NCBI GenBank assembly: GCA_943736015.1
Contig: OX031060.1
Location: forward strand, 19,111,231 to 19,175,230
From: Tridacna crocea
Taxonomy: Eukaryota > Mollusca > Bivalvia > Cardiida > Cardiidae
Length of the DNA: 64,000 nt
Reading direction: 5' to 3'
Shown: in pieces, positions 731-45,116 of the stretch
Layout of the letters: the number at the start of each line of letters is the position of its first letter
Numbering within the stretch: the stretch's first letter is position 1
Notes under the pieces: model-generated
Told to the model about the DNA's origin: nothing
Seen by the model: the letters and a program-made list of their open reading frames with translations, nothing else
Database searches by the model: none
Made by a program: the position numbers and the translations under genes

Positions 731-948
731 TTAACCCATTACCAAACGACAATATTTTAGACTGGTCCAAATTGAAAGCATATTTGCAGACGACAAAATA
801 AAGGTGACTGAAATATTGAAATTTTTTCTGGGAAGGGTAGAAAACACTGTGGGAAAAGGAGAAAATGCTGGTTACCAGCATTTTCTCCTTTTCCCACAGT
901 GTTTTTAAAAGGGGCGTCAAAAGTAGGGATTGTGTGATAATGAGTTAA
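731..948 (+). mobile_element. Family A MITE
   Basis: TTAACCCATTACC to AATGAGTTAA. Stem ends read CACTGTGGG/CCCACAGTG, a paired variant of the usual ATTGTGGG. Carries AATAAA on the + strand. Confidence 0.87.
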
Positions 949-1767: not shown

Positions 1768-4700
1768 GTGAGTATTATACCAATTACAAATCAAATCACC
1801 ACTTAACCCTTTACTCCATAGACACTCATTTATACCCCAGCAAACGAAGTTTGTGGGGGGTATACTGGAATCAGCCTGTTGGTCGGGTGGTCAGTCTGTC
1901 GTAAAATCTTGTCTGGACAACTTCTCCTACATTTTCTGTCTGATTCACTTTAAACTTGGCAGAAGTTTTCATGAAAATTCTATGAAGAATTAATGAGTTA
2001 TTGCCCCTGATTCAAATTTAAAATGCTTGTCCGGACAACTCCTCCTACAATATCAGTTCCATTCACCTTATACATGGCAGAAGTGTCCATTTGGATTTGC
2101 AGATGTGCAAGACGCAAATTTTGTGAAAATTCCGTCAAGAATTACTGAGTGATTGCCCCTGATTTGACTTAAAAATGCTTGTTCGGACAACTCCTCCTAC
2201 AGTTTCTGTCTGATTCACTTTAAACTTGGCAGTACTAGTGCTAATTAGGAGTTGTAGATGTGAAAGAGCAACTTTCGTGAAAATTCTATGAAGAATTAAC
2301 AAGTTATTGCCCCTGTGACATGAAATATAGGGGTGGGGGTATTTATCACCTGTAGTGATAGTTCTTCTTGTTTTGACATATCAACAACAGACAGCTTTTG
2401 AAAACATTGTGGGAAAAGGAGAAATTCCTCATAACGAGCAATTTCTCCTTTTCCCACACTTTTTTCCACTCATTCAGATATTTGTATCCTCATTTGTCCA
2501 TATTTTTCACGCCATATCTTTATTTGCAGCTGAAATGGAAGAGCCTCAAATTGGCATATCAGGTAAAGGGTTAACTCATTACCAAACGACAACATTTTAG
2601 GTGTGTCCAAATCGGAAGCATTTGCAGACAAAATAAAAGTGAGCGAGAAAATGAGTGGTAAAGAATTAACCCTTTACCAAACAATCCCTGGTTTTTACGA
2701 CCCTGAGATAGAAGCCTTTTGAAAACACTGTGGGAAAAGGAGATAATTCTTGTAACCAGCATTTTTTTTCCTTTTCCCACAGGGTTTTCATCCCTTTCCA
2801 AATAAAATTTCAATTTTTGATTCACATTCAAATTTTATTTTGTCATTTGCTTTCAATTTGGACAAGTCCAAAATTTTGTTGTTTGGTAAAGAGTTAAATC
2901 AAACTCCATTCAACAGCCTGCGAAGAGCTCCAAGACATTCCAAATGGACAAGTAGACACAGGTGATGGTCTGGTTTATGGGGATGTGGCTACGTACACAT
3001 GTGATGATGGTCACACATTGATTGGTGAATCCACAAGACAGTGTGGTGCCTCAGGGACTTGGATTGGTGCACCCCCAGTATGCCAGCCCATAGGTAATTA
3101 TAGAAACAATTTTAGAATCAAGTTCTATTTCCTTACCCCATTACCACATAATCCCCACTTTTGACGACCCTGAGAAAGAACCCTTGAAAAAACATTGTGG
3201 GAAAAGGAGAAAATGCTGGTTACCCGCATTTTCTCCTTTTCTTGCGATGTTTTCTACCCTTCACAAAAAAAAAATTCAAATTTTCAATCACTTTTATTTT
3301 TTTCGTCGGCAAATGCTTTCGTTTGGGACAAGCCTAAATACATATTGTTGTTTGGTAATGAGTTAAATACACATTGGCTACCATAAGTAAACAATGTGGG
3401 TATTAAAATGCATCTAAATTATACCATTTCAGACTATGAAAATCTGTTATTGTATGGCTTGTCCAAGTGATAGTAGCTGGCAGAAAATGAATTTTAAAAC
3501 TAGCTGAATAGTTGCCAAGTAGCTCAGTGGTTAGCATATTGGACTCGTGACCTGGTGGTCATGAGCTCAATACCCTGTGGAGACGATTGTTCTTTGCAGA
3601 GAATTTTCGCCTCTCACCTCTGACACATTTGAAAAAAGTAGTAAGTGACTTATAAAGAAAGTTGTACCAACGCCGGTGTAAGAAATCAAGGAAACACTTG
3701 CGTAGGTGCACTGACTGCTTTGGTATTAAAGTCCAATTCCATCAGTCGCTCAATGTACATAAAACTAGAACTATTAGAAACTGGTTTAATGTGTCTTTTA
3801 ACCCTTTACTCCATAGATACTCAGTTCTACGCATTGCTTGTAGGAGCCTTTGGAAAACATTGTGGCAAAAGGTGAAATTGCTCGTGACGAGCAATTTCAC
3901 CTTTTGTCACAATGTTTTCTGTGCTATCAAAAGTTCTCATATACACATAAGAAACAGCTTCATCCTAGCTGTTATATAGGGTCAATTAGAGATACCATAG
4001 AAATGTCTTATGGGGTAAAGGGTTCATTGCTTTGATTTTAGAAATTTGTGAGCAAAGTGCTCTATGAAGAAAGGTTGTTGTTTTTCAGTTATACCTATAA
4101 CAACATGTCCAGAGACCCAAGACAGCACATATAACTATGTATGGAGTGTGCAGCAGATTGGACAAACTAGTAGCAAACAGTGTCCTGATGGATTCACAGG
4201 TAAGCAGATGGTGGTTATTGGTGATCTAGATATTTTTATACATAACCCATTGTACAAGACAGTCCCATACTTTTAGCATTCTGTTGGACAGGGCTTTGAA
4301 AATATGGTAGGAAAAGGAGAACATTCTGGTAACTAGCATTTCCTCTTTTTTTTTTTGATGATGTTTTCCTTTCCAAAGACAACTTCCAGCACCATGTAAT
4401 GGATGAATGATCAGCATCAATGACAGTGACATGTGCTGTTTCAGACGTATTTTCACAGAGCATGGATGATGATGATTATTATTAATATTATTATGATCTC
4501 ATGTTAACAAGCACATGATTATTATTGTTAAGATAAAAACTGATTTTTTTTTTCCAATTGGTCTTTAAAATTTTACTACAGATACATATGATTAATGATG
4601 ATGGTGACTGATGATGATGATTATGTACAGAGAATTTTGATTTTGATTTTTGTTGCTGTTGATGAGTTAAAATGGAGTTAAACTTTAATTCAATCAAGCA

Positions 4701-7700
4701 GTTGTTGTTGTTGATGGTGATTATCATGATGATGATGATGGTGGGGCAGGGTGTGGTGTTGGTGAAGGTAATGATGTTGATCTTGTTGTTGATGATGATG
4801 ATGATGATGATGATAGTTTCAAAATTATGGTTATGATGTAGATGATGATTTTGTGTAACATAACTCTTGTATGTTTGTATTTTTTGTCAACCCTTGTAAT
4901 GTTATATGAGAATAATTACAATAAATGGTTTGATTTGATTTGACTCATACATTCTATAACAGAGAGTATCTATCTACAGGCACAGTAACAAGAGACTGTA
5001 GAGAGGGTGGTCTGTGGTCAGAAACAAATTACAACTGTATCAGAGAAGCTGTTATTGATGTACAAAATAAGGTAAATTATATTTACATCAACTATTTCAT
5101 CTATATAGCACTAACACTAACCAGTTCTTTATAATCTACTTATTCATCATGGACAAAACCTGTTTAACTGTTTACCAAACAAGCCCTGGGTTTTACGTGT
5201 CTGCGCCCGCCAGGGTGGCTCAGTGGTGAGCGTGTCGGACTCACGACCTGGTGGTTGTGAGTTCGATACCCAGTTGAGACAAACTTTCTTTCCGGCGTAT
5301 TTTCGCCTCTCACCTCTGCTGAAGCATGTGAGAAAAGTAGTTGGTGGCTTTGGAAAGAAAGTTGTGGTAGTACTGGTGTAACAAAGCCAGGAAACACACA
5401 TGCATCACCGATCGCCATAATAATTATGACCTATGCTGTTGAAATGGCATTAAACTCCAATACAACCAACATTTTACATTTCTGCAGTAAAAGTCTTTTG
5501 AAAACACTGTGGGAAAAGGAGAAATTGCTCGTAACGAGCAATTTCTCCTTTTCCCACAGTGTTTTTTACCCTTTTTGAGAACTTTCTGCCATTTACTCAC
5601 AATCTAAAATTGTCATCTGCAAACTCTTTTGGTTTGGAAGAGTCAAAACTTTGTTGTTTGGGAAAGGGTTAACTTTTTACCACACAACAAAATTTCTTAC
5701 TTGTCCAAATTGAAAGCACTTGCAGAAGGCAATTCAAATGTGGTTCAAATAAGAAATTGTCCTTTGAATGGGTAGAAAACTTCGTGGGATAAGGAGAAAA
5801 TGCTGGTCATATGCATTTTCTCCTTTTCCCACAAGGTTTCCCAAAGGAAAAAATTATAGACTGGTCCACATTGAAAGTATTAGATCTAGCAGGTGACAAA
5901 ATAAATGTGACTGAAAAAATGACATAATTATTGTTGCAAAAGTAGAAAATGCTGGTAACCAGCATTTTCTCCTTTTCCCACAATATTTTCTAAAGGCTTT
6001 AAATTTTGTCTCAAGGTCATTAAAAGTCAGGATTGTGTGGTAAAGAGTAATTTTGGACAGGTCAAAATTTTGTTCTGTGATAAAGGGTTTAACCCTTTAC
6101 CCCATAGATACTCATTTTTATGCATTGCTTTTAGGAACCTTTGTAAAACATTGTGGCAAAAGGTGAAATTGCTCTTGACGAGCAATTTCACCTTTTGTCA
6201 CAATATTTTCTATGCTATCAAAATGTGTCATATACACATAAGAAACAGCTTCATCCTTGCTGTTATTTAGGGTCAACTAGAGATACCATAGAAATACCTT
6301 ACAGGGTACATGGTTAATAATATGTGTTTTAATCACTTAAATTTGTTATTTATCAGGCTTCAACATTGAACCAAAACTCCTCAAGTGAGGAGATAGCGGA
6401 TACACTTGGAGAACTGTCAAATATTGCAAATATAACAGCAGAAGTCAATGACACAGGTGATGTGAATGCTGATCTGACACAAGGTGAACTACAGGTCCTT
6501 GCTGAGACACTTGATACAGTAGCAAGTGCTATTGTCAGTGAAACTCTGACAGATGAAATTTCAAACGTAAGATTTTTTAAAATAATTATAAAGAGCATAT
6601 TAACTCTTTACCAAATGACAAAATTACAGACTGGTCCAAATTGAAAGCACTTGCAGATGACAAAATAAAGGTTCCTCAAAAATTGTATTTTAAATTTAGT
6701 AGGGTAAAAAACATTGTGGGAAAAGGAGAAAATGCTGGTTACCAGCATTTTCTCCTTTTCCCGCAATGTTTTCAAAAGGCTTCTATCCCAGGGTTTTAAA
6801 AACAAGGGATTGTTTAGGAAAGGGTTCACTGAGTTTTGTGTATTTTGAATTTTCGTGACTCTTCATCTAATGATAACTTGGTTGGTGGGTTGGTTGGTTG
6901 TATTGGGTTTAATGCCACTTTAACAGCTAAGGTCATATCATGGCGGTAGGTGACACACATGTGTTTCCTGGCTTTCTCGTACCAGTACTAACACAACTTT
7001 CTTTCCAAAGCCACCGACTACTTTTCTCACATGCTTCAGCAGAGGTGAGAGGCGAAAATACGCTGGAAAGAAAGTTTGCCTCAACGGGGTATCGAACTCA
7101 CAACCACCAGGTCATGAGTCCGACGCGCTCACCACTGCACCACCCGGGCGGGCTTCTAATGATAACAGTACATGTATATCAGATAAAGGAAAGGTGCATG
7201 CTTTAAGATTTGGAAAATGAACTGGAGGCACTAACCCATTACCACACAATGCCAATTTTAAACAAACTTGAGAAAAAAGACTTTTGTAGGAAAAGGAGAA
7301 AATGCTGGTAACCAGCTCTAACAAGGATATTAATTTCACTTCAAGTTAACATAGATTAACATAAAACTCAGATAGAATCCAAAATACATAGATAAAAAGA
7401 ACTTGCTAATGCACAAAATTCTGTACGATTCAAATGCAGACAGTCTTTTTCCTTTGGTTTTGTGGCTCTTGCAGTGGCGTAATGTTCCCATACACTGTGT
7501 TAGTAAGCACTTTTCTTCTGTTTTTGATCAGGATTTCATGGAAGTTGCCAGCAATTTGATAGACGAGGAGAACTCAGATTCATGGCGAAATACTGTAAGT
7601 AATATTTATGTTCATGTATACAGATCTTTTACTCGTTACCAAACGCCATGCAATTGTTTGGACAGGACCAAATTCAAAGCATCTGCAGACGACATATTAA

Positions 7701-10700
7701 CTCTTAGTATTTTGATGATTTCTGACTTTAATGTTAGAAAATATTGTGGGAAAAGGAGAAAATGCTGGTTACCAGCATTTTCTCCTTTTCCCACAATGTT
7801 TTCCATAGGCTTTCATTCTTTTGATGCTATACCACATTAATCTCTGGTTTTTTTTTTTCTGTACTGCAGCAGATAACATCTGAAAACATAGTGGCAAAAG
7901 TCAAAAGATGGTGCTAATATCTGCTCAATAGTAAACCTTTATTAGATTTGTTTCATAGCAGGCAATTCTTCCTTTTGCAACAATGTTATCTTTTGTACTC
8001 TTTAGTAATTCTAAAGTTGTTTTGATTTTCCATACAAGGAAAGTGGAGCAGAGAGGATACTATCAGCTGTAGATCAGTTTGCTAGCACCCTGTCAACAAG
8101 ATTACAGACATCCAATGAAACAAGAAACATTATCACAAAGAAAAATATAGGTAAGTTGTAATATCTAAAGAAAAGGTAAATCTTAAAGATGGTTACTGCT
8201 CAGTTGTAAAGAATTTTTTACACCAGTTGCATTGCTAGCCGTAGTTTAATATGGTTGTTAAAAATCTTAGACAAAATCAATTTCCATATTGTAGGATGAC
8301 TTGCTTTGTATAATGCATTTCAAAGTTGTTTTAACTCTTTACTAAACAACAACATTTTAGACTGGTCCAAATTGAAAGCATTTGCAGACAACAAATTAAC
8401 TGTAACTCAAAAATTGATTTTTTTTTTCCAGCAGGGTAGAAAACATTTTGGGAAAAGGAGAAAATGCTGGTCACCAGCATTTTCTCCTTTTTCCACCATG
8501 TTTTCAAAGGTCTACCATCTTAGTGTCATAAAAACCAGGGACTGTTTGGTGTAGGGTTAAATCCTTTTCTGCCTAATCACCACTCATATTAGCCATGCTC
8601 TGGCTAAGGAGGGTTTAACCCTTTCCCAAACAATCCCTGGTTTTTACAAGCCTGAGAAAGAAGCCTCTAGAAAACATTGGGGGAAAAGGAGAAAATGCCG
8701 GTAACCAGCATTTTCTCCTTTTCCTACATTGTTTTCTACCCTGCTGGAACAGATTTCAAGTTTTGAGGTATGTTTATTATGTCGTCTGCTAATGCTTTCA
8801 ATTTGGACCAATCCAAAAACTTGTTGTTTGGTAAAGGGTTAATGGATCTCAGTGATGCTTGATGCCACATGAGTCATCACATTGTGATGGATAAGAAAAG
8901 ACCATTTTGTCAAGCAGCTTGCTGAATCATTAGATATAAACAGGTCCTTTATCATGAAGGAAATTAACCCTTTACTCCATAGATACTCATTTCTACACAT
9001 TGCTTGTAGGAGCCTTTGAAAAAACATTGTGACAAAAGGTGAAATTGCTCTTGACGAGCAATTTTATCTTTTGTCACAATGTTTTCTATGCTATCAAAAG
9101 GTGTCATTTACACATAAGAAACAGCTTCATCCTGTCTGTCATTTAGGGTCAATTAGAGATGCCATAGAAATGCCTTATGGGGTAAAGGGTTAACTCTTTA
9201 CCACACGAGAAAATTTTAGGCTGGTCCAAATTGAAAGCATTTGCAGATGACAAAATAAAGGTAAATGAAAAATTGAAATTTGTTCTGGGAAGGGTAGAAA
9301 ACACTGTGGGAAAAGGAGAAAATGCTGGTTACCAGCATTTTCTCCTTTTTCCACAGTGTTTTCAAAAGGCTTCCTTCTCAGGGGCGTCAAAAGTAGGATT
9401 TGTGTGGTAAAGGGTTAACCAATACAAAGTAGTGTCCATGGTTGTGAGGTAGAGTATTGGCCTCATAACCTAAAAGTCCTGTGTTTGATATCAGAGAGGG
9501 GGTGTCAACTTCGGGATTTTTCATTAGCCCACACATTCGATGCAAGTACTGGTGTAGTTCCAAGGAAGCAGAATCAAGAGAGATAAGTTTAAGTTGTAAG
9601 AAGTTGTTTCTCAATTGATGTAAAATAAATATGTTTAAACTGACCAATATGAAAAGTGTTGATCCAGATCAGCCTTACACATTACACCTCCTTTTCACAG
9701 ACCATTGCTCATATACATGTAGATATATTTTTCATACATGGATAGTGTTTCTTTTGCACAGTGCTTGAAGTGAAGAAAGTGGCAACAAATTCTGATTATG
9801 TGTTTCCAAATGCAAGTGAAGCAGAAGATTATGATGAGGATTGGGTACAGAATACAACCAGTGGTCTGACACTGTCCTCTGAGAACCTTCAGGGTATGTG
9901 GAAATATCATTTACTTTTTAACTTATTACCCACACAGCAATATTCTAGGCTTGTCCAAATGGAAAGCATTTGCAGACGACAAGTAAAAGTGACTGAAAAT
10001 TTGAAATTTGGTTTGTGAGGGGTAGAAAACATTGTGGGAAAAGGAGAAAATACAATATTTTCTGAAGGCTTCTTTTTCAGGGTTGTCAAAAGTAGGGATT
10101 GTGTGGTAATGGGTTAATGGTTTACTTGAAGACATAGAGGATATTTTTTTTTTACGTTGAAAGATCAAAATTTGTTTTATAGAGTGAAAATCATCGGTAA
10201 TATTTTCACAAGTGTTGCTCAATTGAACATCTTTAGAAGCTCTAAACCCCATTGAAGTCTTTTTATGAATTCATTGTCTGTTAGTTATTATCTCCTTTCT
10301 TCATAAACGTTTTTCACTAAAGGTATATGATAACAATGGTTTGCATATCTGTTTTGTCGTATCAAGCACCAGATTCAACGAAGGTGTCATCTTAGAAGCA
10401 CCTTTTACACTTGCAATTTAACCCTTTACCAAACAATCCCTGGTTTTTATGATCCTGAGAAAGAAGCCTTTTGAAAATATCGTGGGAAAAGGAGAAAATG
10501 CTGGTTACCAGCATTTTCTCCTTTTCCCACAAGGTTTTCTACCTTGCTCGAAACAAGTTTTAATTTTTAGTTACATTTATCTTGTCTTGTGCAAGTGCTT
10601 TCAATTTGGATCAGTCTAAAATTGTGTCGTTGGTAAAGGGTGAAACGGATTGGCTGTCCACACAGAAATTCAGAGTTGTATAATATTCCATTTATTCACC

Positions 10701-13700
10701 ATAGTCATTTCCCAAATGTACTGGTATACTGTAATACATGAACATGTATTTCAATTTTTCCTAGGGAATGAATCCTACATTACCCGCTCATCTATATACA
10801 GAGATGTGAGAGATATCCTTCCAACATACACAACAAATGAAAGGTACAGTATATAAAGTTTATTTCATTAGCTTGTGGTTAATATGGGGAAATATTTTCC
10901 GAAATAGGGAAAGGTATGCGAAAATAACAAGTGTATAAGGCACAAGTTATTTTGCAGACCTTTTCCTTTTGAGGCAAATATTTCCCCAAATTAACCACAA
11001 GCTAATGAAATAAATTATAGATTACATTTTCTCTGATTGTTTTGTCAATGAATGCCAGTTTCAAAAATAGTGATCTTAAGTCAATTAACCAGATACGTGA
11101 TATTTTCAAAAAGTAGTTCCAGATTTTCAGCAGGAGGAAAATATTCACTGTGACGGGGAAATAATTCCCCCCTCCCCCCAGCTTAAATTACGACATTTCT
11201 TTACCCATAACATTTCTAAAAAATAGACACATGAAATATAACATCTTTTTTTCACCATTTTTTAAACATTTTTTCCATATTTTTAGCTTTCCTGCTCACA
11301 GAAAAAATACATGAGGTAGTATTATCATATGTGCAAAATAAATGACAATTGCTGATACCTCTGTCATTATTACCGCAGACATTTACTGCAGATTGGACTA
11401 CAGTCACATACAAAAAGTATTTATGAGAAAGGCCGCCATCTTTGATTTATCCCAAAACTGACAGACTTGTTTGGGAGCTTAGACTAAGTTAACTTCTCAA
11501 AGGAACTAACTGAAAACTGTTTTTCCTTACCTTAATGCTTTGTGATTGGCCCTTTAACCCTTTACCATACAATGACGACTTTGAACAACCCTGAAAAAAA
11601 AGCCATTTGAAAACATTGTGGGAAAAGGGGAAAATGCTGGTAACCAGCATTTTCTCCTTTTCCCACAATGTTTTCAACCATTTCAAAGCAAAATTGCACC
11701 ATTTGAGCTACTTTGACATTGTCGCTTGCAAATGCTTTAAATTTGGATGGTCTAAATTTTGCCATGTGGTAAAGGGTTAAAGTGGATTACTGACATGATT
11801 TTCCTTGTAATTGATTAGTGAAGGTTAACTCATTACCACACGCGAAAATTTTAGACTGGTCCAAGTTGAAAGCATTTGCAGACGAAAAAATAAAGGTGAC
11901 TGAAAAATAGAAATTTGTTTTGGAAAGGGAAGAAAACACTGTGGAAAAAGGAGAAAATGCTGGTTACCAGCATTTTCTCCTTTTCCCACAGTGTTTTCAA
12001 AAGGCTTCTTTCTCAGGGGCGTCAAAAGTAGGGATTGAGTGGTAATGGGTTAATAATAAAACCTGGCGGATTGTCCATCCAAATTCTTCTTATTTCATGA
12101 AACAAGTATGCATTATTGTTGATGACATGGGGTCTATTTGCGAGTTTTCACTTGATATAAAGCCAAACCTTTCTATTATGTTCAGATCAGGTGATTATGC
12201 TGGCTAGGAAACTGATTTATGGTTGTTTGTGGTGATGTATTCTTGAATTCTAAGACCAGCATTTTCCCCTTTCCCTGCATTGTTTTCAAAAACTATCTTG
12301 ACCTTGGTTGTGAAAACTCAGGATCATATAAAAGGTCAATGGTTTATTCTTCATGTGGAGTAAATATTTATTCAGATCTGCAGATGATGATGATACAGAA
12401 ATCAATGGCCCAGTCATAGCTCTGTCTGTACAGCCACCCCTTGGCAGACTTGATCCCCCTGTTACCATTATATTTGAGCACACAAAGGTAAGTAATCTTT
12501 TAACACTATTCTTCATATTTACATATAATTTGATATTTAAAGACTAAAGTGATATAAATCTATTAACTGCCACTGTGTGGTGGATAGATTGCTTTTGGGA
12601 AAGAAGGGGGGGGGGGGTGTGGAGGGAGATGAGGGGGTTAGTGGTGGTTTAGTACTGGCCTGTCAGCCTGTCATATTGGGTGGAGAGGGATGTTCGAAGG
12701 ACAGGTGACTCTGAGCTCAGTTAACCTCTGAAAGCTGTGGAACTACACACACCCATGAGAACCGGTTAGGTTTCCATTTGTCATAAGTTTATATTTATTT
12801 TGTAGACTTCTTAACCCTTTACTAAACAATCCAAAATGTTAACAACCATACAGAAGAAGGCTTTTGAAAACAGTAGCGGAAAATGAGAAAATGTTGGTAG
12901 TCAGCAGTTTTTCCTTTATAACAATTTTTTCTTCACTGTGAAGGACAAATTTTATCTTTGAAGTAACATTTACCGTCTTCTATTGTATTTAATTTGGATT
13001 AATCTTAAATTATGTTATTGGGTCATGAAAGATCTATGTAAAGCAATCAGTTTTTAACTATATGTTGACTAACCTTTTCCCAAACAATCCCTGGTTTTTA
13101 CAGTTAAGGAATAGAAGCCTTTTGAAAACATTGTGGAAAAAGGAGAAAAGGCTGGCAACCAGCATTTTCTCCTTTTCCCACAATGTTTTCTACCTTATCA
13201 TATAGAAAAATCATCTATTTAGCAACTGTTAATTTATCATCTGCAAAATGCTTCCAATTTGGTCTGGTCCAAAATTTGCCATTTGGGAAAGGATTTAGTA
13301 AGTGTTCTTTGGCATTTCCATTTATTAAATATGCTTTATTAACTTATGATTTATTTCATTATTTTGCAGAAAGGCTCAAGAAATGCAACTTGCAACTTCT
13401 GGTCCTTTGCTGAGTAAGCATCTATTGTATATATTTCAATCATGCCTATAATGAAATTAGTCTGTTTATTTCTTGATTCATTGATTGACTCATTCATTGA
13501 TCCATCCGTCTGTCTATCCATCTATCCAGCCACCCTTCTATCCATCCACTCTTCCATCCATCCATGTTTGCTTTTTTGATTCCTCATATATTTCATTTCT
13601 TTTTTTTCTTTGTAAGCCCTTCATCTGTTTTAATATTATATAAGACTGCTTCACTATGTTCCTGTCATTGAAATTACAACATCAATATTTTGGCTGAAAT

Positions 13701-16700
13701 ATGTCGGGGATGCCAAATGACTGAGGCTGTAAATGGGCTTTTGTTTATATTTTGTTTATTTATTATTTTGTTCAGTCATTCGCTCTGTTTCCATAATCTT
13801 GTTTCTTGATCTTACACAGCCATTTTATTGTTATATCTTCTATTTCAGAAATGGCACAGGGTTTTGGTCAACAGAAGGCTGCACTGTTGTATCAAGTAAT
13901 GATACAATAACAGTGTGTGAATGTGACCATCTAACAAACTTTGCTGTTCTTATGAGCCCTTTTAAAGCGGTAGGTCTTTCACTTTACGATAAAGGAAACA
14001 TGCAAGACAAGCAAGGACTTGCACGCCCCACATTCCATTGACAAAAGATCATGAATCTCATTAGGATTGTTATAGTTCCTATAATTGAGCTGTCCTCTGG
14101 TAAAAGGGGGCTTAATGCATCTCCATGTTCCATTATACCCAACAGGACACCCCAATATTATGGATCATAGAAAATTAAATATGTATAACAACCAACTGAA
14201 CTATAAGGTAGACTGGTTCTGTGACATACAGAAAATTGATCAATATTGAATTAACTCATTACCAGGCGATAATATTTTAGACTTGTCCAAATTGAAAGCA
14301 TTTGCAGATGACAAAATAAAAGTGACTGAAAATTTGAAATTTGTTTTGTGAAGGGTAGAAAACATTGTGGGAAAAGGAGAAAATGCTGGTTACCAGCATT
14401 TTCTCCTTTTCCCACAATGTTTTTGGAAGGCTTTTTTCTCAGGGGCATCAAAAGTAGGGATTTGTGTGGTAATGGGTTAAACAACTAAACTTTGGACAAG
14501 TCCTACTTGAATGCATTTTCAGACAAGAAAGTAATTGTTTTCCAAATAACCATGGGTTTTCACAACCTTAAGAAAGAAGACTTTTAAATACATTGTTGGA
14601 AAAGGCTGGCATAATTATAGCCATGACATGTAGGTTCATGGTACTTATTGCTTCAAGGTAATTGGTATTTTTCTGTCATAACAAAAATTGGTGCCTTCTA
14701 ACTTGTCTGGTCTTTATTTTGATTGTGAATACCTTGACTCAGATATTTCTTTACCAAATCTAACTTCATTTTCCACAATTAAAGGTAAGAATGGAAGAAA
14801 AATATACCAGAAGTGAAAACAATGTCATCGGCACCTACATGCTAAATACCATTTACCCCACCCTCTAAAATCTTTCTTTACACACAGTTTTACTGAAAAA
14901 TATGCATGGAGACATATTTGGATCATCTGCTAGATCATGTGGCAATTATTTTCAAATCATGTGACTGCAAACTTAAGCCAAATATATCAAGTTGTATTGT
15001 CTTTTTTGCAAAAACCACCCAAATTACATGAATCAAAGTCTTAACTCTTTACCACACAATGACTACTTTTGATGACCCTAAGAAAAAAGCCTTTTGAAAA
15101 TATTGTGGGAAAAGGAGAAAATGCTGGTAACCAGCATTTTCTCCTTTTCCCACAATGTTTTCTATTCTATCAATAAACAATTGCACCATTTGAGTCACAT
15201 TGAAATTATGGTCTGCAAATGTTTTCAATTTGGACAGGGCTAAAATTTTGTCATCTGTTAAAGAGTTAATGGTACCAGGACAGAGGTGAAGATCAAGGTG
15301 TATTTTCTGTTATATGTTTGAATGAAACTTGACAATATTTTCTATGACACTATGTAAAAGATGAACTTAGAAATTTATTTTGTGATTTATTCCAAACTAC
15401 ATGTATGTTAAAATTTGGGCTTTTTCTTTACTACTATGAATCAACAAACTGCAAGGCTAGTTACAATTTTCAAAGATTGAATTATGTGGTACGTGTACGC
15501 CAGTAATGATATCGTTTTAGTCATTACGCATCCCTGCATTTCATACTAGGCTATAGGACTCTAAAATCTTTACCACATAACCCCAAGTTTTAACCACTCT
15601 GAGGAAATAGCCTCTGGAAAACCTCGTGGGAAAAGGAGAAAATGCTGGTAACCAGCATTTTCTCCTTTTCCCACAAGGTTTTTTATGCCTTTACCAACAA
15701 TTATAGTCATTTCAGATAAATTTAAAGTATAGTCTGCAAATGCTTTCAATTTGGACCAGTGTAAAATTTTGTCGTTTGGTAAAGAATTAGTTGTTTCGTC
15801 AAGGGATATTCCTGTGAAAAGAGGAGTGCTTAAAGTGAGGATTGGTTGATTTTTAAATGACTTCTATATTTTCCTAGGCTGACGCATATTCTCTACCACT
15901 TCGGATTATTTCCATCGTCGGGATTTGTGTATCCATCCTTGGACTTGTTATAACAGTTTTCCTGCATTTGACATTATGGAGGTATCTAAAGTTTCGACTA
16001 CTGAGTATTAACTCATTACCAAACAACAATATTTTAGGCTTGTCTAAATCGAAAGCATTTGCAGACAACAAAATAAAAGTGACTGAAAATTTAAAATTTA
16101 TTTTGTAAAGGTAGAAAACATTGTGGGAAAAGGACACAATGTTTTCTAAAGGCTTCTTTCTCAGGGATGTCAAAAGTAGGGATTATGTGGTAATGGGTTA
16201 AGTGTTTATGACCCTGAGGAAGAAGCCTCTTGGGTGGCTCAGTGGTGAGCATGTTGGACTGATGACCTGGAGGTTGTGAGTGCGATATCCGGTTGAGGCG
16301 AACTTTCTTTTTGGCGTATTTTAGACTCTCACCTCTGCTGAAGCATGTGAGAAATGTAGTTGATGCCTTTGGAAAGAAAGTTGTGTTAGTACTGATATGT
16401 GAAAGCCAGGAAACACATGTGCCTCACCGACCGCCATGATATGACCTTGGCTGCTAATGTGGCGCTATACCCCAATAAAACCAACCTGCCAATCCCGAGG
16501 AAGAATACTTTAGAATACATTTAAGAGAAAAAGAGAAAATACTGGTAACCAGCATTTTCTTCTTTTCCCAAAAATGTTTTCTAAAAATGATTTTTAAAGA
16601 CAAACCCATGGGTTCTATTTGATGTGCTTCAACATAAGTCAATGTGAAAATTTGCTGACTGTTACAGAGTTAAATGTATGCTCTTTGATTTGTAAAATGC

Positions 16701-19700
16701 ATACCGGTAATCATGTTCTCCAAAGAAAAAAATTTTTTTTGTCTAAATTCAATTTGCTTCCAAAGTATTTGTGACCCATCATGCAGAAAGAGGCCATCTG
16801 GAAATTCTCTACATCAGTTAGATGAAAACAGATCAATGATAGCGCAGGTCAGTTTAGTGTCAACCCTGGTCCTGCAGCCTGCGCAATTTGCGCAGTCTGA
16901 CCAGGGTTGACACTTTTTGCAGTTCCCAGAAGGTCCTTTTTTGTGTGATATAGGTCACATCTGAGTCTTGTCGCCTTTGTTGTCTGCAAATACTATAAAC
17001 ATGGGAAAAAATTAAACTTTGTTGTTAGGGACAGAGTTACATGTTAGTAATCCTTTGCCACAGTATTTGTTCTTCCATTCATTTCAGATATTTAAAGAAT
17101 GACAGGGTTACAATTCTAATGAATCTTTGCATTGCATTAGTTTTGTCTTACATCATATTTATTGGAGGTGTGGATCGGACAGAAAGCAGGGTAAGTTAGA
17201 CTAGTGTGCATATCATTCATTGATTGTCCATATATACATGTATGGTAGACTGACCAAAAATTCTTGGACAATGCTGTATGAAAAAGGCATTCAGTGCATT
17301 AACTCATTACCAAACAACAAAATGTTAGGTTTGTCCAAATCGAAAGCATTTGCAGACGACAAGATAAAAGTGACTGAAAATTTAAAATTTGTTTTGTGAA
17401 GGGTAGAAAACATTGTGAGAAAAAGAGAAAATGCTGGTAACCAGCATTTTCTCTTTTTCCCACAATGTTTTCTAAAGGCTTCTATCTCAGGGGCGTCAAA
17501 AGTAGGGATTGTGTGGAAATGGGTTAAAGATTATCGGCTCAAAAATATCACTAGCTACCTTCCTTTTCCAATCGTGTTTTCCAAAGGCTTCTTTTTCAGG
17601 GATCTTGGAAGCTTGGATAATGTGTTATAGGGTTAATTCTCTACCAAATGATTGAATTAATTCTTTACCAAACAACAAAATTATAGACTGGTCTAATTTG
17701 AAAGCATTAGCAGAAGACAAAATTAAAGTGACTCAAAAACTGAAATTTGTTTTGGGAAGGGTAGAAAACATTGTGGGAAAAGGAGAAGATGCTGGTTACT
17801 GGCATTTTCTCCTTTTCCCACAATTTTTTTCAAGAGGCTTCTTTGACAGAGTTGTGAAAACCAGAGATTGTTCTGTAAAGAGTTAAAACAATTCTCTTCC
17901 TGCAGGAATCATGTGCAGCTGTAGCAGCCATCTTACAATACATATACCTAGTTGTGTTTTTCACCATGCTGGCAGAGGGAATTGAGATTAGCTCCAGCGT
18001 GTTGTTTGTTTTTTCCAAAAAGTCCAGAGTAAAAATACTCCTTATTTTAGCATGGGGTGAGTGTTCAGTTTTACAGTTTAACCCTTTCCCAAACAACAAA
18101 TTTTGGACCCTTCCAAACCGAAAGAGTTTTCAGAAGACAATTTTAGATTTGGAGAAAATGGCAGAATGTTCTCAAAAAGGGTAGAAAACACTGTGGGAAA
18201 AGGAGAAATTGCTCGATACGAGCAATTTCTCTTTTTCCCACAGTTTTTTTTCAAAAGACTTTTACTGCAGACACGTAACAACCAGGGCTTGTTTGGGAAA
18301 GGGTTAATATGTATGTCAGCACATTGATTCTTTCAAACATATTAACAAATTTTTATGATAACAATGATAAAAACTTTTAACCCCTTACTTAACAATTAAA
18401 ACAACTTAAAGTTGTGAAGGCCTATCAAGCGATAGTTGATCGTTTACTGTGATTTTGAAATGTATCGATGTGTACAAAGCCATTTGTATGAACTATCTAT
18501 GATAACAAGCTAGACAAAAACTGTAGGAGGCAGCATTTAATTACCTTTCTCACAGAACATCCAACAGAATACATTAATAGTTGTACGGTCAGGTGGCAGG
18601 GTACGTGGAAACTTGTTCACGGCTGTAGTTAATCATGTCGCCCAGAGCTGAAGGTGAGGTGGAGACATGATTCACCACAGCCGTGAACAAGTTTCCAAGT
18701 TCCCTGCCACCTGACTGTACAACAAATTTATTATACTTCAAAGTTTTCCCCCTTTCAAAGCGTGTTAAGTGAAATTTTCCTGTTTTATAATTTCACGAAT
18801 CAAGTATGCTGACGAAATAGAAATTCCCTTCTGAGTGCCCCAATTCAATGAAAACTGATGTCACTGGAAATTGACGTCACTAAAACATGCAGTTTGGTGC
18901 ATAAATGTGCAGTCTGGTGATCGAAACGACGCCGCCATTTTGGATGTTGTGTTGCAAATGTAGTGATGTTTACAGAGCACTCAAAAGGGAAACTGGTTTT
19001 GCTTGGTTTTTGCCAGGGAACATGATATATGTTCCTGGCATGTTAACCAATCAGATCACAAGAAATTTCTTTGCAGTATAATAATATTAGTTGTGCATTC
19101 AAGTGGCAGGGGACTTGGACACTTGTTCACAGCTATGGGCAATCATTTTGTCCCAAGCTGAACTTGGAAACTTGAAAACTTGTTCACAGCTGTGCTGAAT
19201 CATGTCACCCTGAGCCATAGGCGAGGTGGTGAGGTGATGATAGGATTTGCCACTGCCGTGAATAAGTTTCCAAGTCCGCTGCCACCTCACCGTACAAAGA
19301 GTTAATTGTAATGTAAAAATTACCATTCAAATGTGTATTCAATGAACTGGTCTCACAAATTGAGTATGCTGATAAAATAGAACTTGCCTTTTGAGTGCCC
19401 CTATATTCAATGAAAACCAATGTCACAGACAACTGACATGACTGAAACCATGGTAAAACATGCAGTTTGGTGCATATATTTGATGATTTCACTGTGATAA
19501 ACAACTAACATATTTTTAACTAAACATGGATTTAAACAACTTCAAGGTAAGTATCCACACATTTAAATGATTTGTTGACAAAAATGAAGGAACATTGATT
19601 GCATCAAATAACCATGAGGTTGTCCTTTTAACCCTTAACAACATGACAAGGTTTTAGATCTGTTCGAATTGAAACCATTGGCCGATGACAGTTTCAGTGT

Positions 19701-22700
19701 GGCTCATATGAAATGGTTTTTCTTTGATAGGGTAGAAACATTATGGGAAAAGGAGAAAATGCTGGTAACCAGGATTTTCTCCTTTTCCCACAATGTTTTC
19801 AAAAGGCTTCTGTCTCAGGGTCGTAAAAGCAGGGATTATTTGGTAAAGAGTTAATATTGCAACATATGAGTTTCAACACTTCACAATTTGCTCACCTGAT
19901 AAAGGGATGACTTGTTCTAACCCTGTGTATTTGTTTTAGAAATACAATGAATTATAATACATGTATATGCAACTATATTCACTTACTTTAAAAAATATTC
20001 AATTCTTTCAACTTATGTGACATTTATCTGGGGAACCTAGTAATACGGTATGGTGCAGGCTACTCATTTTGACTTGTGGGCCCTTTGTACTAACTTGGCA
20101 GCCATTTTGGGTGTTGTGTTGAAAGTGTAGTAGTGTATGGGGCTCCTGTAAGGGAAACTGCTTTTATATTCATGAGCTTTGCCAGAGTACTGGAATATAT
20201 GTTCGGGACATACATGTATTATACGATTGCAAGAAATTTCATTGCAGTATTACTATAGATATTAGACTGCAAGGTTTGTGTTGTCTGACCTTATCTACAC
20301 TGGTTCCTTTACCATCTCAGGCACTGGAGCGATTAACTCTTCACCAAAACAACAAAATTTTGGACCTGTCCAAATTGAAAGTATTTGCAGAGGACTAAAT
20401 CAGTGTGACTCAAAAATTTGAACTGGATTTGGGAAAGGTAGAAAACATTGTGGGAAAAGGAGAAAATGCTGGTTATCAGCATTTTCTCCTTTTCCTACAA
20501 TATTTTCAAAAGCTTTCTTTTTCAGGGTCGTTAAAAGTCGGGATTGTGTTGTAAAGAGTTAAACCAGGCTAGAATCTCAGATAATTGTTCTTTTCAGTTT
20601 TACCTGGTGTAATAGTAGGTGTTTCTCTTGGAGTGACAAAAGCAGACGGCTTTGGAAATAAAGATTTGTAAGTATCACATTGTAGTCCTAAGTGGAAAAA
20701 AAAATAACCTTTCATGGAACAAAGACATCTTTCCATGGACTAAGAGGTAAATGGTAAAAAAATTCAAAGTCTAGTATTAATCAGCATCTCCTGAACTATA
20801 AAGAAACAAAAATGGATAACTAACATAAACTCTCTACCAAACGACAAAATTTTTGATTGGTGGAAATTCAAAGCAGTTGCAGACGACAATTCAAACATGA
20901 CTCAAGTAAATGGGAATTAGTTTTGATAGGGTGGAAAACATGGGGGAAAATGAGAAAATGTGGTTACCAGCATTTTTCCTTTTCCAACTATGTTTTAACC
21001 TTTTACCAAACAACAAAATTTGGGACGTGACCAAATTGAAAGCATTTGCAGATGACAAATTTAAACATTGATGAAATTATGATTTCTGTCTTTGACAGAG
21101 TAGAAAACACTGAGTGAAAAGGAGAAAATGCTGATTACTAACATTTTCTCCTTTTCCCACAGTGTATTCCAAAGACTTCTTCTATTTTTTGAAGGGTCAT
21201 TAAAACTCTGAATTCTGTGGTAAAATGCTTATAAAGATTTAACTCTTTACCAAACAACAAATTTTAAAATTTTAGACTGGTCCAAATTGAAAGCATTGGC
21301 AGACAACGAAATAAAACTGACTGAAAATTTGAAAATTGTTTTGTGAAGGGTAGAAAACATTTTGGAAAAAAGAGAAAATGCTGGTCACCAGCATTTTCCC
21401 CTTTTTCCAAAGTGTTTTCAAAAGTCTTTTTTCTCAGGGTGGTCAAAAGTAGGGATTGTGTGGTAATGGTTTAATACTGGAATATAAATACAAGCAAAAA
21501 CATAGAGCAAAAAGGGCTCTGAAGTATTTTGCCCAAAGATCCTACACCTTACCACTGAGTCATACAGAATTTCTCTGTAGAAATCTTCTGGTGCTAAAAC
21601 TAATATATGAAAGGATCAACTCTTTACCAAACGATGAAATTTTAGACTTGTCCAAATTGAAAGTATTTGCAGATGACAAAATAAACAGGACTCAAAAATT
21701 GAAACTTGACTTTAGAAGAGTAGTAAACAATGCTGCTTACCAGCATTTCCTCCTTTTCTGACAATGTTTTCAGAACTTGAGAAGGTTTCTTTCTCTTAGT
21801 CGTAAAAACCAGGGATTGTTTGGTAAAGGCTTAAAGCGTCTTTCTGTTTTTTTTCAGCTGCTGGCTTTCAATGGAGAGTGGGTTGATCTGGGCCTTTGTA
21901 GGTCCAGCGCTTGCCATTATTTTTGTAAGGATAGTTTCTTCTGCTGTTAAACTCCTGTGTAATATAACCATAATTTTCAAACATTACTGTATGTCAACCT
22001 CAGTTTGGCCAATTTAAAAGAAATAAATACAAAAAAAATGAAATTTAAACATTGTATATATCTGCAAAATATGACCTTTTGACTTGAGATAATGACTAAA
22101 AATACTAGTGGAAAGTACAGTTTTGTCTGAATTTGATTTTACATTCTATCTCTGACATGTGCTTCCCTGTTTATCAGAGTGTTTGATAGTGAAGGATAAG
22201 TTTTCACATAGTATAACTCTTTACCAAATGACAAAATTCTAGACTTCTACTTCCATATGTTAGAACATATATTCAACCCTTTCCCAAATGACAAATTTTA
22301 GACTGTCCCAAACTCAAAGTGTTTGCAGATGACAAATATGAATTTGATGAGAATGACAGAAAGTTTTCCAATGGCTAGAAAACACCGTGGGAAAAGGAGA
22401 AATTGCTGGTTACGAGCAATTTCTCCTTTTCCCACTGTGTTTTCTAAAGACTTGTACTGCAGACATGTAAAAACCAGGGCTTGTTTAGGAAAGAGTTAAC
22501 GAGATAAAAAACAATATAAGAATGCTGGTTACCAGTATATTCTGCTTTTTCCAAAGTGTTTTCATAAAGCTTCTTCTTTAAGGTTGTTAAATTCTTTTGG
22601 TGAAAGGTTTACATAACCGGCTGTAACCCATAAACCCAAGTTTTTCTGACACTGATGAAAAAGGAATTGGAAAGTTTTGTGTGGAAATGACAAAATGCAA

Positions 22701-25700
22701 TTAACCAGCATTTTCTGCTTTTCCTAAAATGTTTTTTGCCTTTTAAGAAACGATTTCTTTTCTTTTGAAGTGCATTCAAAAAGTTGTCTGCAAATGGTTT
22801 TGATTTAGACATGCCTAAAATTTTCCCATTTAAAAAAGCCTTGAATCCTTTATAAAAACACAATAAAAGTGTTAAATTGGTTGAGCAAGCTCTGGGCACA
22901 AGAGCAGCTTTTTCTTCACACAGTGTTTATGTCAAGAAATGTCTTTGATATGTTCAGAATTTTCCTGGATTTATAAAGGGGAAAAAACAGATTACCCAGA
23001 TTTTCTTCTGTTTCTGAAGTGTGTTTTAAATTCCTTTTCTGTCAGGATTTTTAACTTGTTTGGTACAGGGTTCATTCAACAGAGATCTCTTTCATGGTAT
23101 AGAGTGAACAAAGTATAAGGCCCTTTACCAACAATCCTCTGTTTTTAACCCTTTACCCCATAAGGCATTTCTAAGTTATACCTAATGGACTTTAAATAAC
23201 AGCAAGGATGAAGCCGTTTCTTATGTGTATATGACACCTTTTGATAGAAAACATTATGGCAAAAGGTGAAATTGCTCATCACGAGCAATTTCACCTTTTG
23301 CCACAATATTTTCCAAAGGCTCCTACAAGCAAGGCGTAGAAATGAGTATCTATGGCGTAAAGGGTTAAAGACCCTGAGGAACAGAACTTTCTAAAACACT
23401 GGAAAAAAGAGAAAATCCATGTAATAAGCTTTCTCTCCTTTTTCGCACAATGATTTCTACCCTGTCAAAAAAACTTTTTTAATTTGCATCACCTTTAGAA
23501 TTTTTGCATGGAGAAGCTTCAATCTGGAAGAGTGCAAACTTTGTTGTTTGGGAAAGCATTGACACAATATTTTTTATATGTTTCTGTTTTACAGTTTAAC
23601 TGTGTGTGCCTTATTATTGTGATGAGAGCCATGTTTACCACGCAAGCCATGGCTCAGAAAAAGAAAGCAGAAAAGCTCAAGTAAGTTTCATAGGACTTTA
23701 ATCAGCAGATGACATTATTTTGGTGTTAGGATACACTTTCTATTAACTTTTTACCCAATATCCTGAGTTTCAACAACCCTGAGAAGAAGGCCTTTTGAAA
23801 ACATTGTGAGAAAAGGAGAAAATGCTGGTGACCGGCATTTTCTCCTTTTTCCCCACAATGTTTTCTAGTCTGTTTGATACAAATCTCATCATTTGTGCTG
23901 TATGAATTTTGTTGTCAGGAATTGTCTTCAAATTGAACTGTCAAAAATATTGTCACCTGGGAAAGCGTAAACACTATTCATTAATGGCAACTTTTTCTGG
24001 TCATTCATTTTTTTTTTCGTAATTTACTGTAAATTGTTATTTTGGTGTAAAGGTATACAAATGTGTGGATTTTTTTTTTACTCAAGAAATGTTTTGACAG
24101 ACGTACCAGTAGATTAGCTGCCAATAATTCTGAACTATATAAATGACCATCATTGATCAACAGTACCAGTACATGTATATCATTACATACAACATTAACC
24201 ATTTCCCAAACAACCCCCCGGTTTTTACAACCCTAAGAACAGAAGCCTTTTGAAAACATTGTAGGAAAAGGAGAAAATGCTGGAAACCAGCATTTTCTCC
24301 TTTTCCCACAAAGTTTTCTACCCTTTCCAAACAAACTTCAATTTTTGAGTCCCATTCATTTTGTTGTCTGGAAATGCTGTCAGATTGGACCAGTCTAAAA
24401 CTTTGTCGTTTGGTAAAGAGTTGATATTTTCCTCTTTCAGTCATTACTATTTTTGAGGTTGTCATGAAATTTAATGATTAAGAAAGGAAGTCTTTACAAA
24501 GAACATTGTTCTCAGGAAAAATTACAACAAATGTACATTTAGATAAAATGCTTCCTCAGCTTATCAGACAAGTAATGCTTTTCTCAAATTGACGATTTTT
24601 GCTGCTCAGTTTATCATGGTCTATAGTCGGTCATACTACTTACATCATAGTGTTTGATTTTTTTTTCTTTTGATCAGGACAAGTGTAAGGTCACTGTGTG
24701 TGTTAATGCCATTAATGGGTGTAACCTGGCTCATAGGTATATTTCATATCAACGACAGTTTCTACTGGATACAGTATATGTTTGCCATTTGCAATGGTCT
24801 TCAGGTAAATCTTGTAACATATAGTCTTACAAACAATGTCATTACCTCTTACCACACAATCCCGACTTTTAACGACCCTGAGAAAGAAGCCTTTTGAAAA
24901 TATTGTGGGAAAATGAGAAAATGCTGGTAACCAGCATTTTCTCATTTTCCCACAATGTTTTCTACCCTTCACAAAACAAATTTCAAATTTTCAGTCACTT
25001 TTATTTTGTCGTCTGCAAATGCTTTCAATTTGGACAAAGCTAAAATTGTGTTGTTTGGTAATTGGTTAACAAAGAAACAAATGAACAAATGCATAGCAGA
25101 AATACAGGGACCAGGCAGATTCGAACCTAGAATGCACGGATTAGTGGCCAACATCATAACCACTAGGCTAAAGAGAATTCCCCTCTCGTCCAGGCGTTTT
25201 AGGTTCGAATCCTGCCTGGTCCTTGTATTTCTACTATGCATTTGTTTATTTGTCTCTTTGTCGATGCGCCATAAAACAACATTCATTATTTGTTTCTTTG
25301 TTACGGACTTCATTCGTAAGAATGGAGCAATATGGGCTTCTGTCATCCTCTTTGAAAGTAAAGTGGAAAATGTATACATTTCTACAATACCTTAGTGGAT
25401 CATTGTTTTGCATGTTATTGCTAACTTAAGTACAAATTATCATACATTTGCCCATGTGAAATGTATGGCACATAACAAAGTTTGAAAATGTGAAACATAT
25501 TTAATACATCTGTTTCATGGTCCATGTTGTGTAAAACTAAAGAAGAGAATTAGCTGAAGCTTCAACTGATAAAAATATTAATGTCCATTATCTATTATGC
25601 TGTTTTATATGACTATTTTTTGGTTTCTACAGGCATATTTAAAAAAGTGATATTTTTTTGGTTTCTACAGGCATATTTAAAAAAGTGATATGAGCTTTTC

Positions 25701-36956: not shown

Positions 36957-37185
36957 TTAACCCTTTACTAAACAACAAAATTTTAGACTGTTCCAAATTG
37001 AAAGCACTTGCAGGCGACAAAATAAACGTGGCTCAAAAATTGAAACTTTACTTTAGGAAAGTAGAAAACATTGTGGAAAAAAGAGAAAATGCTGATTACC
37101 AGCATTTTCTCCTTTTTCCACAATGTTTTCAGAAGTCTTCTTCCTCTGGGTTGTAAAAACCAGGGATTGTTTGGGAAAGGGTTAA
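36957..37185 (+). mobile_element. Family A MITE
   Basis: TTAACCCTTTACT to GGGAAAGGGTTAA; both arms carry the TGTGGAAAA/TTTTCCACA variant. Confidence 0.9.
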
Positions 37186-40818: not shown

Positions 40819-41047
40819 TTAATCCTTTACTCCATTAGGCATTTCTAAGGTATCTCTAATTGATCCTAAATAACAGCAAGTATGAAGCCATTTCTTATGT
40901 GTATATAACACCTTTTGATAGCATAGAAAACAGTGTGACAAAAGGTGAAATTGCTTGTCATGAGCAATTTCACCTTTTGCCACAATGTTTTCCAAAGGCT
41001 CCTACAAGTAATGCGTAGAAATTAGTATCTATGGAGTAAAGGGTTAA
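40819..41047 (-). mobile_element. Family B MITE
   Basis: TTAATCCTTTACTCC to GTAAAGGGTTAA. Confidence 0.89.
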
Positions 41048-42871: not shown

Positions 42872-44106
42872 AACAAGAAAACCATGATGGTCCAATATCT
42901 CTCACCTGTGTACTAAGCTGTAAAATCAAACTTGTGACCCCTGGGCAGGGCCAGTTTTGACCCCAGGGGCATCCTAAGACAAAAACTTGGTAGAGATCCA
43001 CTAGGAGATGTTACTTACAAAATATCAAAGCTCTACACCTTCTAGTTACAGAGAAGTAGAATTTTAAAGTTTTCCTTCTTTGTTCCTGTTTTGAACTTGT
43101 GACCCCTGGGGCAGGGCAAGTTTAGACCCCAGGGGCATCGTATGAAGACACTTTGTAGAAGTACACTAAGAGATGCTGCAACCCAAATATCAAAGCTCTA
43201 CACCTTCTAGTTTCAGAGAAGAAGAATACTAAAGTTTTCCTTCTTTGTTACTATGTTTCGAACTTGTGACCCCCGGGGCGGGGCCAGTTTTGAACAATCT
43301 TGGCACAGGTCCACTAGGAGATGCTACATACCAAATATCAAAGCTTTGCATCTTCTAGTTTCAGAGAAGAGGAAATTTAAAGTTTTCCTTCTTTGTTCCT
43401 ATGTTTCGAACTTGTGACCCCCGGGGTGGGGCCAGTTTTGACCCCCAGGGACATCATATGAACAATCTTGGTAGAGGTCCACTAGGAGATGCTACATACC
43501 AAATATCAAAGCTCTGCACCACCTAGTTTCAGACAAAAAGAATTTTAAAGTTTCCTTCTTTGTTGCTATGTTTCAAACTTGTGACCCATGGGGCAGGGCA
43601 TGTTTTGACCTTAGGGACATCATATGAAGAATCTCTGTACAGGTCCACTAGGAGATGCTACAAACCAAATATCAAAGCTCTGCACTTTCTAGTTTCAGAG
43701 AAGAAGAATTTTAAAGTTTTCCTTCTTTTTTCCTATGCTTCAAACTTGTGACCCCCGGGGCAGGCCAGTTTTGATCCCAGGGGCATCATATGAACAACCT
43801 TCGTAGAGGTCCACTAGGAGATGCTACATACCAATTTTCAAAGCTCTACGCCTTCTAGTTTCAGAGAAGAAGATTTTCAAAGATTTTGCTAGTTTTTCCT
43901 TTTGGTTGCCATGGCAACAAGAGTAATGGGTGGAATTCAATCTCTTGAACAACTTTGGTATAGCTTCACCCAAGGAACATCCCTGCCAAGTTTCATCAAG
44001 ATTGGCCCAGGGGTTTAGGAGGAGAAGACGACGCATGACGGACGACGGACATTGGACAATCATAAAAGCTCACCATGAGCACTTCGTGCTCAGGTGAGCT
44101 AAAAAC
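42872..44106 (+). repeat. Satellite-core (pearl-like) element, complete
   Basis: The left end is AACAAGAAAACCATGATGG ... CTCACCTG. It is followed by about six units of about 170 bp (ACTTGTGACCCCNGGGG ... GGTCCACTAGGAGATGC ... CTTCTAGTTTCAGAGAAG). The 3' segment is GACGACGGACATTGG with the terminal hairpin GCTCACCATGAGCACTTCG / TGCTCAGGTGAGC. No coding capacity; likely mobilised in trans. Confidence 0.82.
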
Positions 44107-44163
44107 ACTGGGGGAGAGAGGGGGAATGGATAAAATCCTAATAAACAGCATTTGCAAGGCTCT

Positions 44164-44383
44164 ATAACCCTTTACTAACTTTTAATAATCCCATGGAAAA
44201 AGACTTTCAAAAGCATTGTGGGGAAAGCAAACAATGCTGGTGACGAGCATTTTCTCCCTTCAAAACAATCTTATCTACTCTTTCAAAGACACAATCAAAC
44301 CTTTTGAGCCAAATTTAATTTATTGTTTGAATGTGCTTTCAATACAGGTCAGTGTAAGTTTTCGTGTTTCTGTCTAGAGTTAA
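44164..44383 (-). mobile_element. Family A MITE, decayed
   Basis: TATAACCCTTTACT to CTAGAGTTAA; centre GCTGGTGACGAGC. Confidence 0.75.
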
Positions 44384-44469
44384 ACATTAGAGTATCAACT
44401 AATCTAAATGGACATCTTCAAATGCTACGGGGAGATCACTCCTTCATACATAGCTTCATCCTGGTTTAA

Positions 44470-44696
44470 TTAACCCATTACCACACAATCCCTACTTTTG
44501 ACACCCCTGAGAAAGAAGCCTTTAGAAAACATTTTGGGAAAAGGAGAAAATGCTGGTAAAGCATTTTCTCCTTTTCCTACAATGTTTTCTACCCTTCACA
44601 AAACAAATTTCAAATTTTCTGTCACTTTTATATTGTCGTCGGCAAATGCTTTCGATTTGGACAAGCCTAAAATATTGTCGTTTGGTAATGAGTTAA
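44470..44696 (-). mobile_element. Family A MITE
   Basis: TTAACCCATTACC to GGTAATGAGTTAA; hairpin centre shortened to GCTGGTAAAGC. Confidence 0.88.
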
Positions 44697-44732
44697 AATA
44701 TAAAACCTAACAACAGCGTTAGAGATATCCTT

Positions 44733-44820
44733 TTAGCTCAGGGGTTATGGTGTTGGCTTTTCATACGAGCGAATCCTGCTTGGTCCCTGTATTTCTGCTA
44801 TACATTTGTTCATTTGATAT
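44733..44820 (+). mobile_element. SINE fragment (25-kb type)
   Basis: TTAGCTCAGGGGTTATGG A-box-like start and CGAATCCTGCTTGGTCCC. Confidence 0.6.
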
Positions 44821-44830
44821 GTACACCTTT

Positions 44831-45059
44831 TTAACTCTTTACCAATCAATCCCGACTTTTAACACCTCTCTGAAAGAAGCCTTTAGAAAACATTGTAGGA
44901 AATAGAGAAAATGCTGGTAACCAGCATTTTCTCCTTTTTCCACAATGTTTTCTACCCTTCACAAAACAAATTTCAAATTTTCAATCACTTTTATTTTGTC
45001 GTCTGCAAATGCTTTCAGTTTGCACCAGTCTAAAATATTGCCGTTTGGTAATGGGTTAA
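44831..45059 (-). mobile_element. Family A MITE
   Basis: TTAACTCTTTACC to GGTAATGGGTTAA. Confidence 0.89.
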
Positions 45060-45116
45060 AAGTTGATTTTGTCCAGAATGCTGCAGCAAAGTGGACAGTG
45101 TAGATCAAAGACCAGG

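Follow-up and report, generated by a model that had tools for sequence, protein, structure and literature searches.

Paired changes in the central palindrome of a TTAA-type MITE family of Tridacna crocea: mostly subfamily states against a background of one-armed decay

The MITE copy at 24839..25069 (minus strand) of the window that we analyzed, by which we mean the whole 64,000-nucleotide stretch of Tridacna crocea DNA, carries a substitution in one arm of its central hairpin that is matched by a complementary substitution in the other arm. A sequence-only reading of the window had pointed to similar pairs in several other copies and reasoned that changes due to random decay would be expected on single arms. 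It proposed that the arms are rewritten from each other, by template switching or conversion, or that the hairpin is kept by selection. The locus raises the question of whether the two arms change together in individual copies, or whether the pairs were already present in the elements from which these copies descend.

A profile built from the repeats matched 107 nonoverlapping pieces of one family, 68 of which were full length, i.e., reached within 15 positions of both ends of the 229-position model. At about 227 bp each, the full copies make up roughly one-quarter of the window. TTAA was present at both ends of 36 of the 68 copies (47 at one end and 50 at the other), and the consensus begins with TTAACTCTTTACCAAAC... 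and ends with ...TGTGGTAAAGGGTTAA. For piggyBac/TTAA-type MITEs, the terminal inverted repeats are described as carrying a CC[C/T]T motif (PMC2872659); in our family, one consensus end has TTAACCCTTTACC, and the other, TTAACTCTTTACC, is off by one base, at which some copies have C. This short, uniform, TTAA-flanked, high-copy family is a piggyBac-type MITE. Ten pairs of adjacent matches overlapped by exactly one TTAA. Both neighbors reach the model end there in 7 of the 10 (2571-2574, 5669-5672, 9190-9193, 41044-41047, 55630-55633, 55931-55934, and 58838-58841), and at 23365-23368, 55522-55525, and 56272-56275, the common TTAA lies inside a piece, with one neighbor breaking off at it. Because neighboring matches have one TTAA in common, newer elements seem to land in the TTAA of older ones, whether at a terminus or in the interior.

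Of the published cases that we found, the nearest is CMITE, a group of piggyBac/TTAA-type MITEs from the corals Acropora millepora and Acropora palmata (PMC2872659). The two have in common TTAA at both ends, a CCCTTT-type terminal motif (here at one end), a small and putatively noncoding sequence, copies that adjoin each other, and an unusually conserved core, the internal region of CMITE being reported as more conserved between families than its TIRs. They differ in length (~229 bp here versus ~100 bp in CMITE) and in the nature of the conserved core, which here is a long palindrome. They also differ in how neighbors meet, since CMITE arrays are ascribed to slippage, whereas neighbors here have one TTAA in common, as by insertion into an older element. 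The published 60-base internal consensus of CMITE gave no nhmmer match in the window, and its best blastn match there was 11 bases long (E=0.61), which is chance level. Pattern scans of viral and of bacterial/archaeal collections gave no matches to the hairpin core, and there were no Rfam matches at the gathering score.

The center of the family is a near-perfect palindrome of 67 bp, with 33-bp arms on either side of a 1-nt center (33+1+33; stem positions are counted from 0). In the type A copy at 24839..25069 (profile match 24844-25069, 225.8 bits), the palindrome lies at 24896..24962 and contains the paired change T24914/A24944 and a single mismatch, T24901/G24957; folded as DNA, this copy is far more stable than shuffles (z = -8.2). 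All of the paired strings named in the sequence-only reading are present in the copies to which they were ascribed. The type A copies at 17299..17527, 36957..37185, and 21239..21474 (all plus strand) carry paired changes at stem position 18 (G to A), at position 13, and at positions 9 and 13, along with one, two, and three unpaired changes, respectively. The paired ACCT/AGGT change, placed earlier in a copy starting at 15561, belongs to a copy at 15565..15789 (minus strand), where it occupies stem position 6 beside two unpaired changes. The strings CACTGTGG/CCACAGTG were found in the plus-strand copies of the CACTGTG/CACAGTG group (stem position 7) at 731..948, 9190..9418 (whose TTAA at 9190-9193 is common to the copy at 8964-9193), and 11825..12053, and also in the element at 5164..5672 (minus strand), a subfamily C copy split by an insert. 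The left end of this split element was placed by eye; its profile match covers only 5459-5672, and its hairpin lies at 5500-5566. To the eye, the insert (about 5207-5450) and a stretch at about 25100-25190 both resemble tRNA-derived SINEs. ARAGORN predicted no tRNA gene anywhere in the window.

These examples are real but selected. Across the 56 type A copies, 205 changed stem pairs were altered on one arm, 17 on both arms in a compensating manner, and 3 on both arms but unpaired; the copies of subfamilies B (8) and C (4), recognized from their stem and flanks, are not part of these counts, nor are partial copies and gapped cells. Paired change is thus not the general pattern that the examples implied. 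The expectation that random decay hits one arm at a time describes most copies well (205 of 225 changed pairs were one-armed), and deletions, too, are unmirrored: the copy at 21617..21834 (plus strand) has lost 18 nt from one arm, and copy 41683 has lost 8 nt from one arm, the other having no counterpart in either case. Two further copies, at 16008..16201 (plus strand) and 9920-10117, have deletions that run through the palindrome center, which is what an unstable hairpin would be expected to produce.

What does not fit this expectation is a small surplus of compensated changes. When right arms were shuffled among the type A copies, 6.6 compensated pairs were expected versus the 17 seen (p=0.0002), and a null that kept each copy's changes per arm, and hence its age, gave 8.7 (p=0.0043). 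Leaving out stem position 7, which marks the CACTGTG group, the same age-keeping null gave 7.5 expected versus 12 seen (p=0.06). Sliding the arms by 1 to 4 positions left 8-16 two-armed cells versus 20 in register. We also divided the type A copies by decay, again without position 7, into classes that were chosen after seeing the data. Paired changes numbered 2 versus 0.6 expected in the 28 copies with 0-3 stem changes, 3 versus 0.9 in the 13 copies with 4-5, 4 versus 1.0 in the 6 copies with 6-7, and 3 versus 5.0 in the 9 copies with at least 8; pooling the 47 of 56 copies with 0-7 changes gave 9 versus 2.5 (p=0.0007). Scoring covarying against unpaired substitutions in the aligned hairpin cores of the window, as had been suggested, therefore yields an excess that is real but small, with one-armed changes dominating. 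The copy-specific part of the excess is known from the copies of one window, and unsampled source elements are possible.

Twelve of the 31 stem matches outside full copies were long enough to score, and the one at 62437 was left out, as it lies in another element; the 11 remaining partial copies had 62 mismatched and 8 paired-changed cells. The omitted hairpin, 62437-62508 (E=0.081), would alone have supplied 13 of the 21 paired cells in the 12-stem table. The element in which it lies, at 62375-62539, is a different inverted-repeat element with outer repeats at 62375-62409 and 62505-62539 that are 83% complementary. Within it, 62436-62504 is a perfect palindrome with 34-bp arms, whose core resembles that of subfamily B; the profile match is weak, and the likeness may reflect convergence or distant relationship.

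Most paired cells turned out to be subfamily states. The 68 full copies held 59 paired cells in 15 states, with 52 cells in states of at least two copies and 7 in single-copy states, and 46 of the 59 fell into five states that mark subfamily B (8 of 68 copies, e.g., 3798..4024, minus strand), subfamily C (4 of 68 copies, e.g., 18078..18307, plus strand), and the CACTGTG group. The A and B consensus sequences differ at five stem pairs, four of them on both arms and one on one arm only, and A and C differ at three, all on both arms. These are differences between consensus sequences; individual B and C copies are not all paired at stem position 30. On a tree of the flanks of the 68 copies, we counted 7 paired and 36 single stem changes on internal branches, whereas terminal branches carried 6 paired and 227 single changes, plus 3 double changes that do not pair (paired share, Fisher p=0.0012). 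One internal paired event (34223) rests on a gap in copy 21617, and moving it to the terminal branches gives 7/227 versus 6/36 (p=0.0066). The paired fraction averaged 18.7% on internal versus 4.0% on terminal branches over 60 bootstrap trees and was higher on internal branches in 60 of 60. Six of the 7 paired events placed on internal branches are those that set subfamilies B and C apart.

The idea that paired changes simply mark inherited subfamilies, which had been put forward as what would refute copy-specific change, thus accounts for 46 of the 59 paired cells but, among the copies of this one window, for only 3 of the 17 within type A. These 3 are the cells of 731, 9190, and 11825, which group on the flank tree; the other 14 were traced to no flank group and form a smaller, scattered set. 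Copies 2666 and 20995, which have the position 7 state, lie apart on the tree, and so do the copies that bear the states seen twice (positions 5, 11, and 13). These states have therefore arisen repeatedly, passed from one lineage to another, or been copied between arms. Among partial copies, 16508 has the position 9 T state and 32064 has the position 12 A state, both of which belong to the 7 single-copy states, and 31501 has the paired state of position 5. Sampling 17, 34, 51, and 68 copies gave 3.9, 5.2, 6.4, and 7.0 single-copy paired states, a number that is still rising, and therefore the source variants are not exhausted by one window. Two cases are of particular relevance to copy-specific change. 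At stem position 18, copies 24839 (T/T) and 17299 (A/A) are unlike each other and also unlike flank relatives that are 89-93% identical to them. At stem position 9, copies 35804 and 44470, which are relatives of 21239, have T on the right arm only, while 21239 has T on both, a pattern that looks stepwise and is what arm-to-arm copying, or a second hit, would leave.

Mismatches and paired changes also behaved differently with copy age. In the 56 type A copies, mismatches increased with flank divergence (Spearman 0.45, p=0.0006), whereas paired changes, which are few and give low power, did not (-0.07, p=0.61). With terminal branch length as the measure of age, the type A correlations were 0.40 for mismatches (p=0.003) and, again with few events and low power, 0.11 for paired changes without position 7 (p=0.40).

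We then compared the stem to the rest of the element. Between the A and C consensus sequences, 3 of 33 stem pairs, 47 of 122 inner-flank columns, and 6 of 40 columns in the 20-base ends differed; between A and B, the corresponding figures were 5 of 33, 71 of 122, and 11 of 40. The stem was thus less diverged than the inner flanks (p=0.0013 for A-C and 9e-6 for A-B, although B flanks may not be homologous to A flanks throughout, which would inflate flank divergence), while the difference in conservation between the stem and the ends (20 bases each) was not significant (p=0.50 and 0.26). Mean divergence of A copies from the consensus was lowest in the stem (0.072), intermediate in the ends (0.125), and highest in the inner flanks (0.189), and the stem had a smaller ratio of internal to terminal changes than the inner flanks (p=2e-5). 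For inserted copies, the two measures of how fast the stem changes disagree: singletons per column were not fewer in the stem (0.81 versus 0.61 in the inner flanks), whereas parsimony placed 3.4-4.0 terminal changes in the stem versus 6.1 in the inner flanks. We reason that, if arms were copied without bias and no selection acted, stem pairs would diverge like neutral sites and keep pace with the flanks. Since the stem diverges more slowly than the flanks and copying alone predicts equal rates, we prefer a constraint on the hairpin in source elements.

We consider it probable that source lineages, the elements that are copied onward, keep the palindrome paired, and that copies lose pairing after insertion, mainly through changes on single arms. 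The counts show a high-copy nonautonomous TTAA (piggyBac-type) MITE with a 67-bp near-perfect central palindrome, its subfamilies, a stem that changes much more slowly than the inner flanks, and decay that is predominantly one-armed. We infer that most paired changes in single copies come from source elements that lie beyond the window. Selection to keep the hairpin functional, for instance for a hairpin-dependent step of transposition, may hold the source stems paired, and occasional arm-to-arm copying possibly helps. The source elements that would explain 24839, 17299, and the paired excess of the less decayed copies were not seen in the window, which counts against this explanation.

The alternative closest to the original proposal is that a polymerase switches template within the hairpin, during replication or gap repair after excision, such that a single event pairs a change in resident and source copies alike. 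The excess in less decayed copies (9 versus 2.5), the complementarity of 17 of the 20 two-armed changed cells, the scatter of most type A paired cells on the flank tree, and the one-armed and two-armed states at position 9 would all be accounted for, and template switching at inverted repeats is an established mutation process (PMC8794818, PMC8604942). As described there, it predicts one-step changes of both stem arms and homogenized arms. Two-armed changes are seen here too, but they are a small minority and do not increase with copy age. Rewriting in place should erase or pair new mismatches, and yet mismatches grow with age and paired changes do not; terminal branches bear 227 single versus 6 paired changes; the arm deletions in 21617 and 41683 were left unmirrored; and the stem diverges between subfamilies more slowly than the inner flanks. 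We regard this alternative as unlikely overall, and general rewriting in resident copies is not supported. Of what the sequence-only reading offered, wholesale rewriting of resident copies thus finds no support, and rare arm copying or selection on the hairpin may still be at work. A narrower version, to which we likewise give only a small chance, is that arms are copied in active elements during replication or repair linked to transposition, which would keep the palindrome perfect, with each jump able to pair a one-arm mutation and found a subfamily.

Coincidence explains less. Two independent hits at mutable stem positions could produce some pairs, and position 13, which supplied two of the earlier examples, is often hit singly (5 left and 8 right arms of 56), with 0.71 joint hits expected and 2 seen. 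Without position 7, the age-keeping null leaves 12 versus 7.5 (p=0.06), and the nine most decayed copies have fewer pairs than expected (3 versus 5.0). However, paired differences that extend across whole subfamilies are not chance double hits in single copies, the less decayed copies exceed expectation (9 versus 2.5), and the paired changes at positions 18 (G to T) and 6 fall on sites where only 0.05-0.11 are expected, so we judge chance to be an improbable general account. Least probable is selection on a transcribed RNA hairpin, for example a small-RNA precursor, that keeps the arms paired. The fold of the copy is very stable (as DNA, z = -8.2), and the stem is more conserved than the inner flanks, as such selection would have it, but among the one-arm changes, transitions that would keep a G-U pair are not clearly in excess for either strand (52 and 63, alongside 90 transversions), and pairing is lost with age in inserted copies.

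Constraint on the hairpin of source lineages therefore remains our preferred explanation, and the family offers a way to examine it against the alternatives. A dense family whose hairpin can be scored pair by pair would, with the whole genome, make a good natural test of template switching versus hairpin selection, and, if arms are indeed copied in active elements, the family would be a natural record of template switching. More generally, claiming a mechanism from paired changes in a repeat family first requires a phylogenetic control and a tally of the one-armed changes. Among the matches listed in a search of the open-licence literature, we noticed none that deals with paired changes in the stems of MITE hairpins.

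The window also holds other repeats. Another family, at 42905-47582 and 53745-54152, is clustered, with copies mostly 148-178 bases apart. Nine reading-frame pieces were compared to Pfam; three matched nothing, and six matched Sushi, GPS, reverse transcriptase (twice), RNase H, and LINE-type endonuclease, a set that suggests an animal genome. On the minus strand, 48207-51335 contains a LINE in several reading-frame pieces, with matches to endonuclease, reverse transcriptase, and RNase H.
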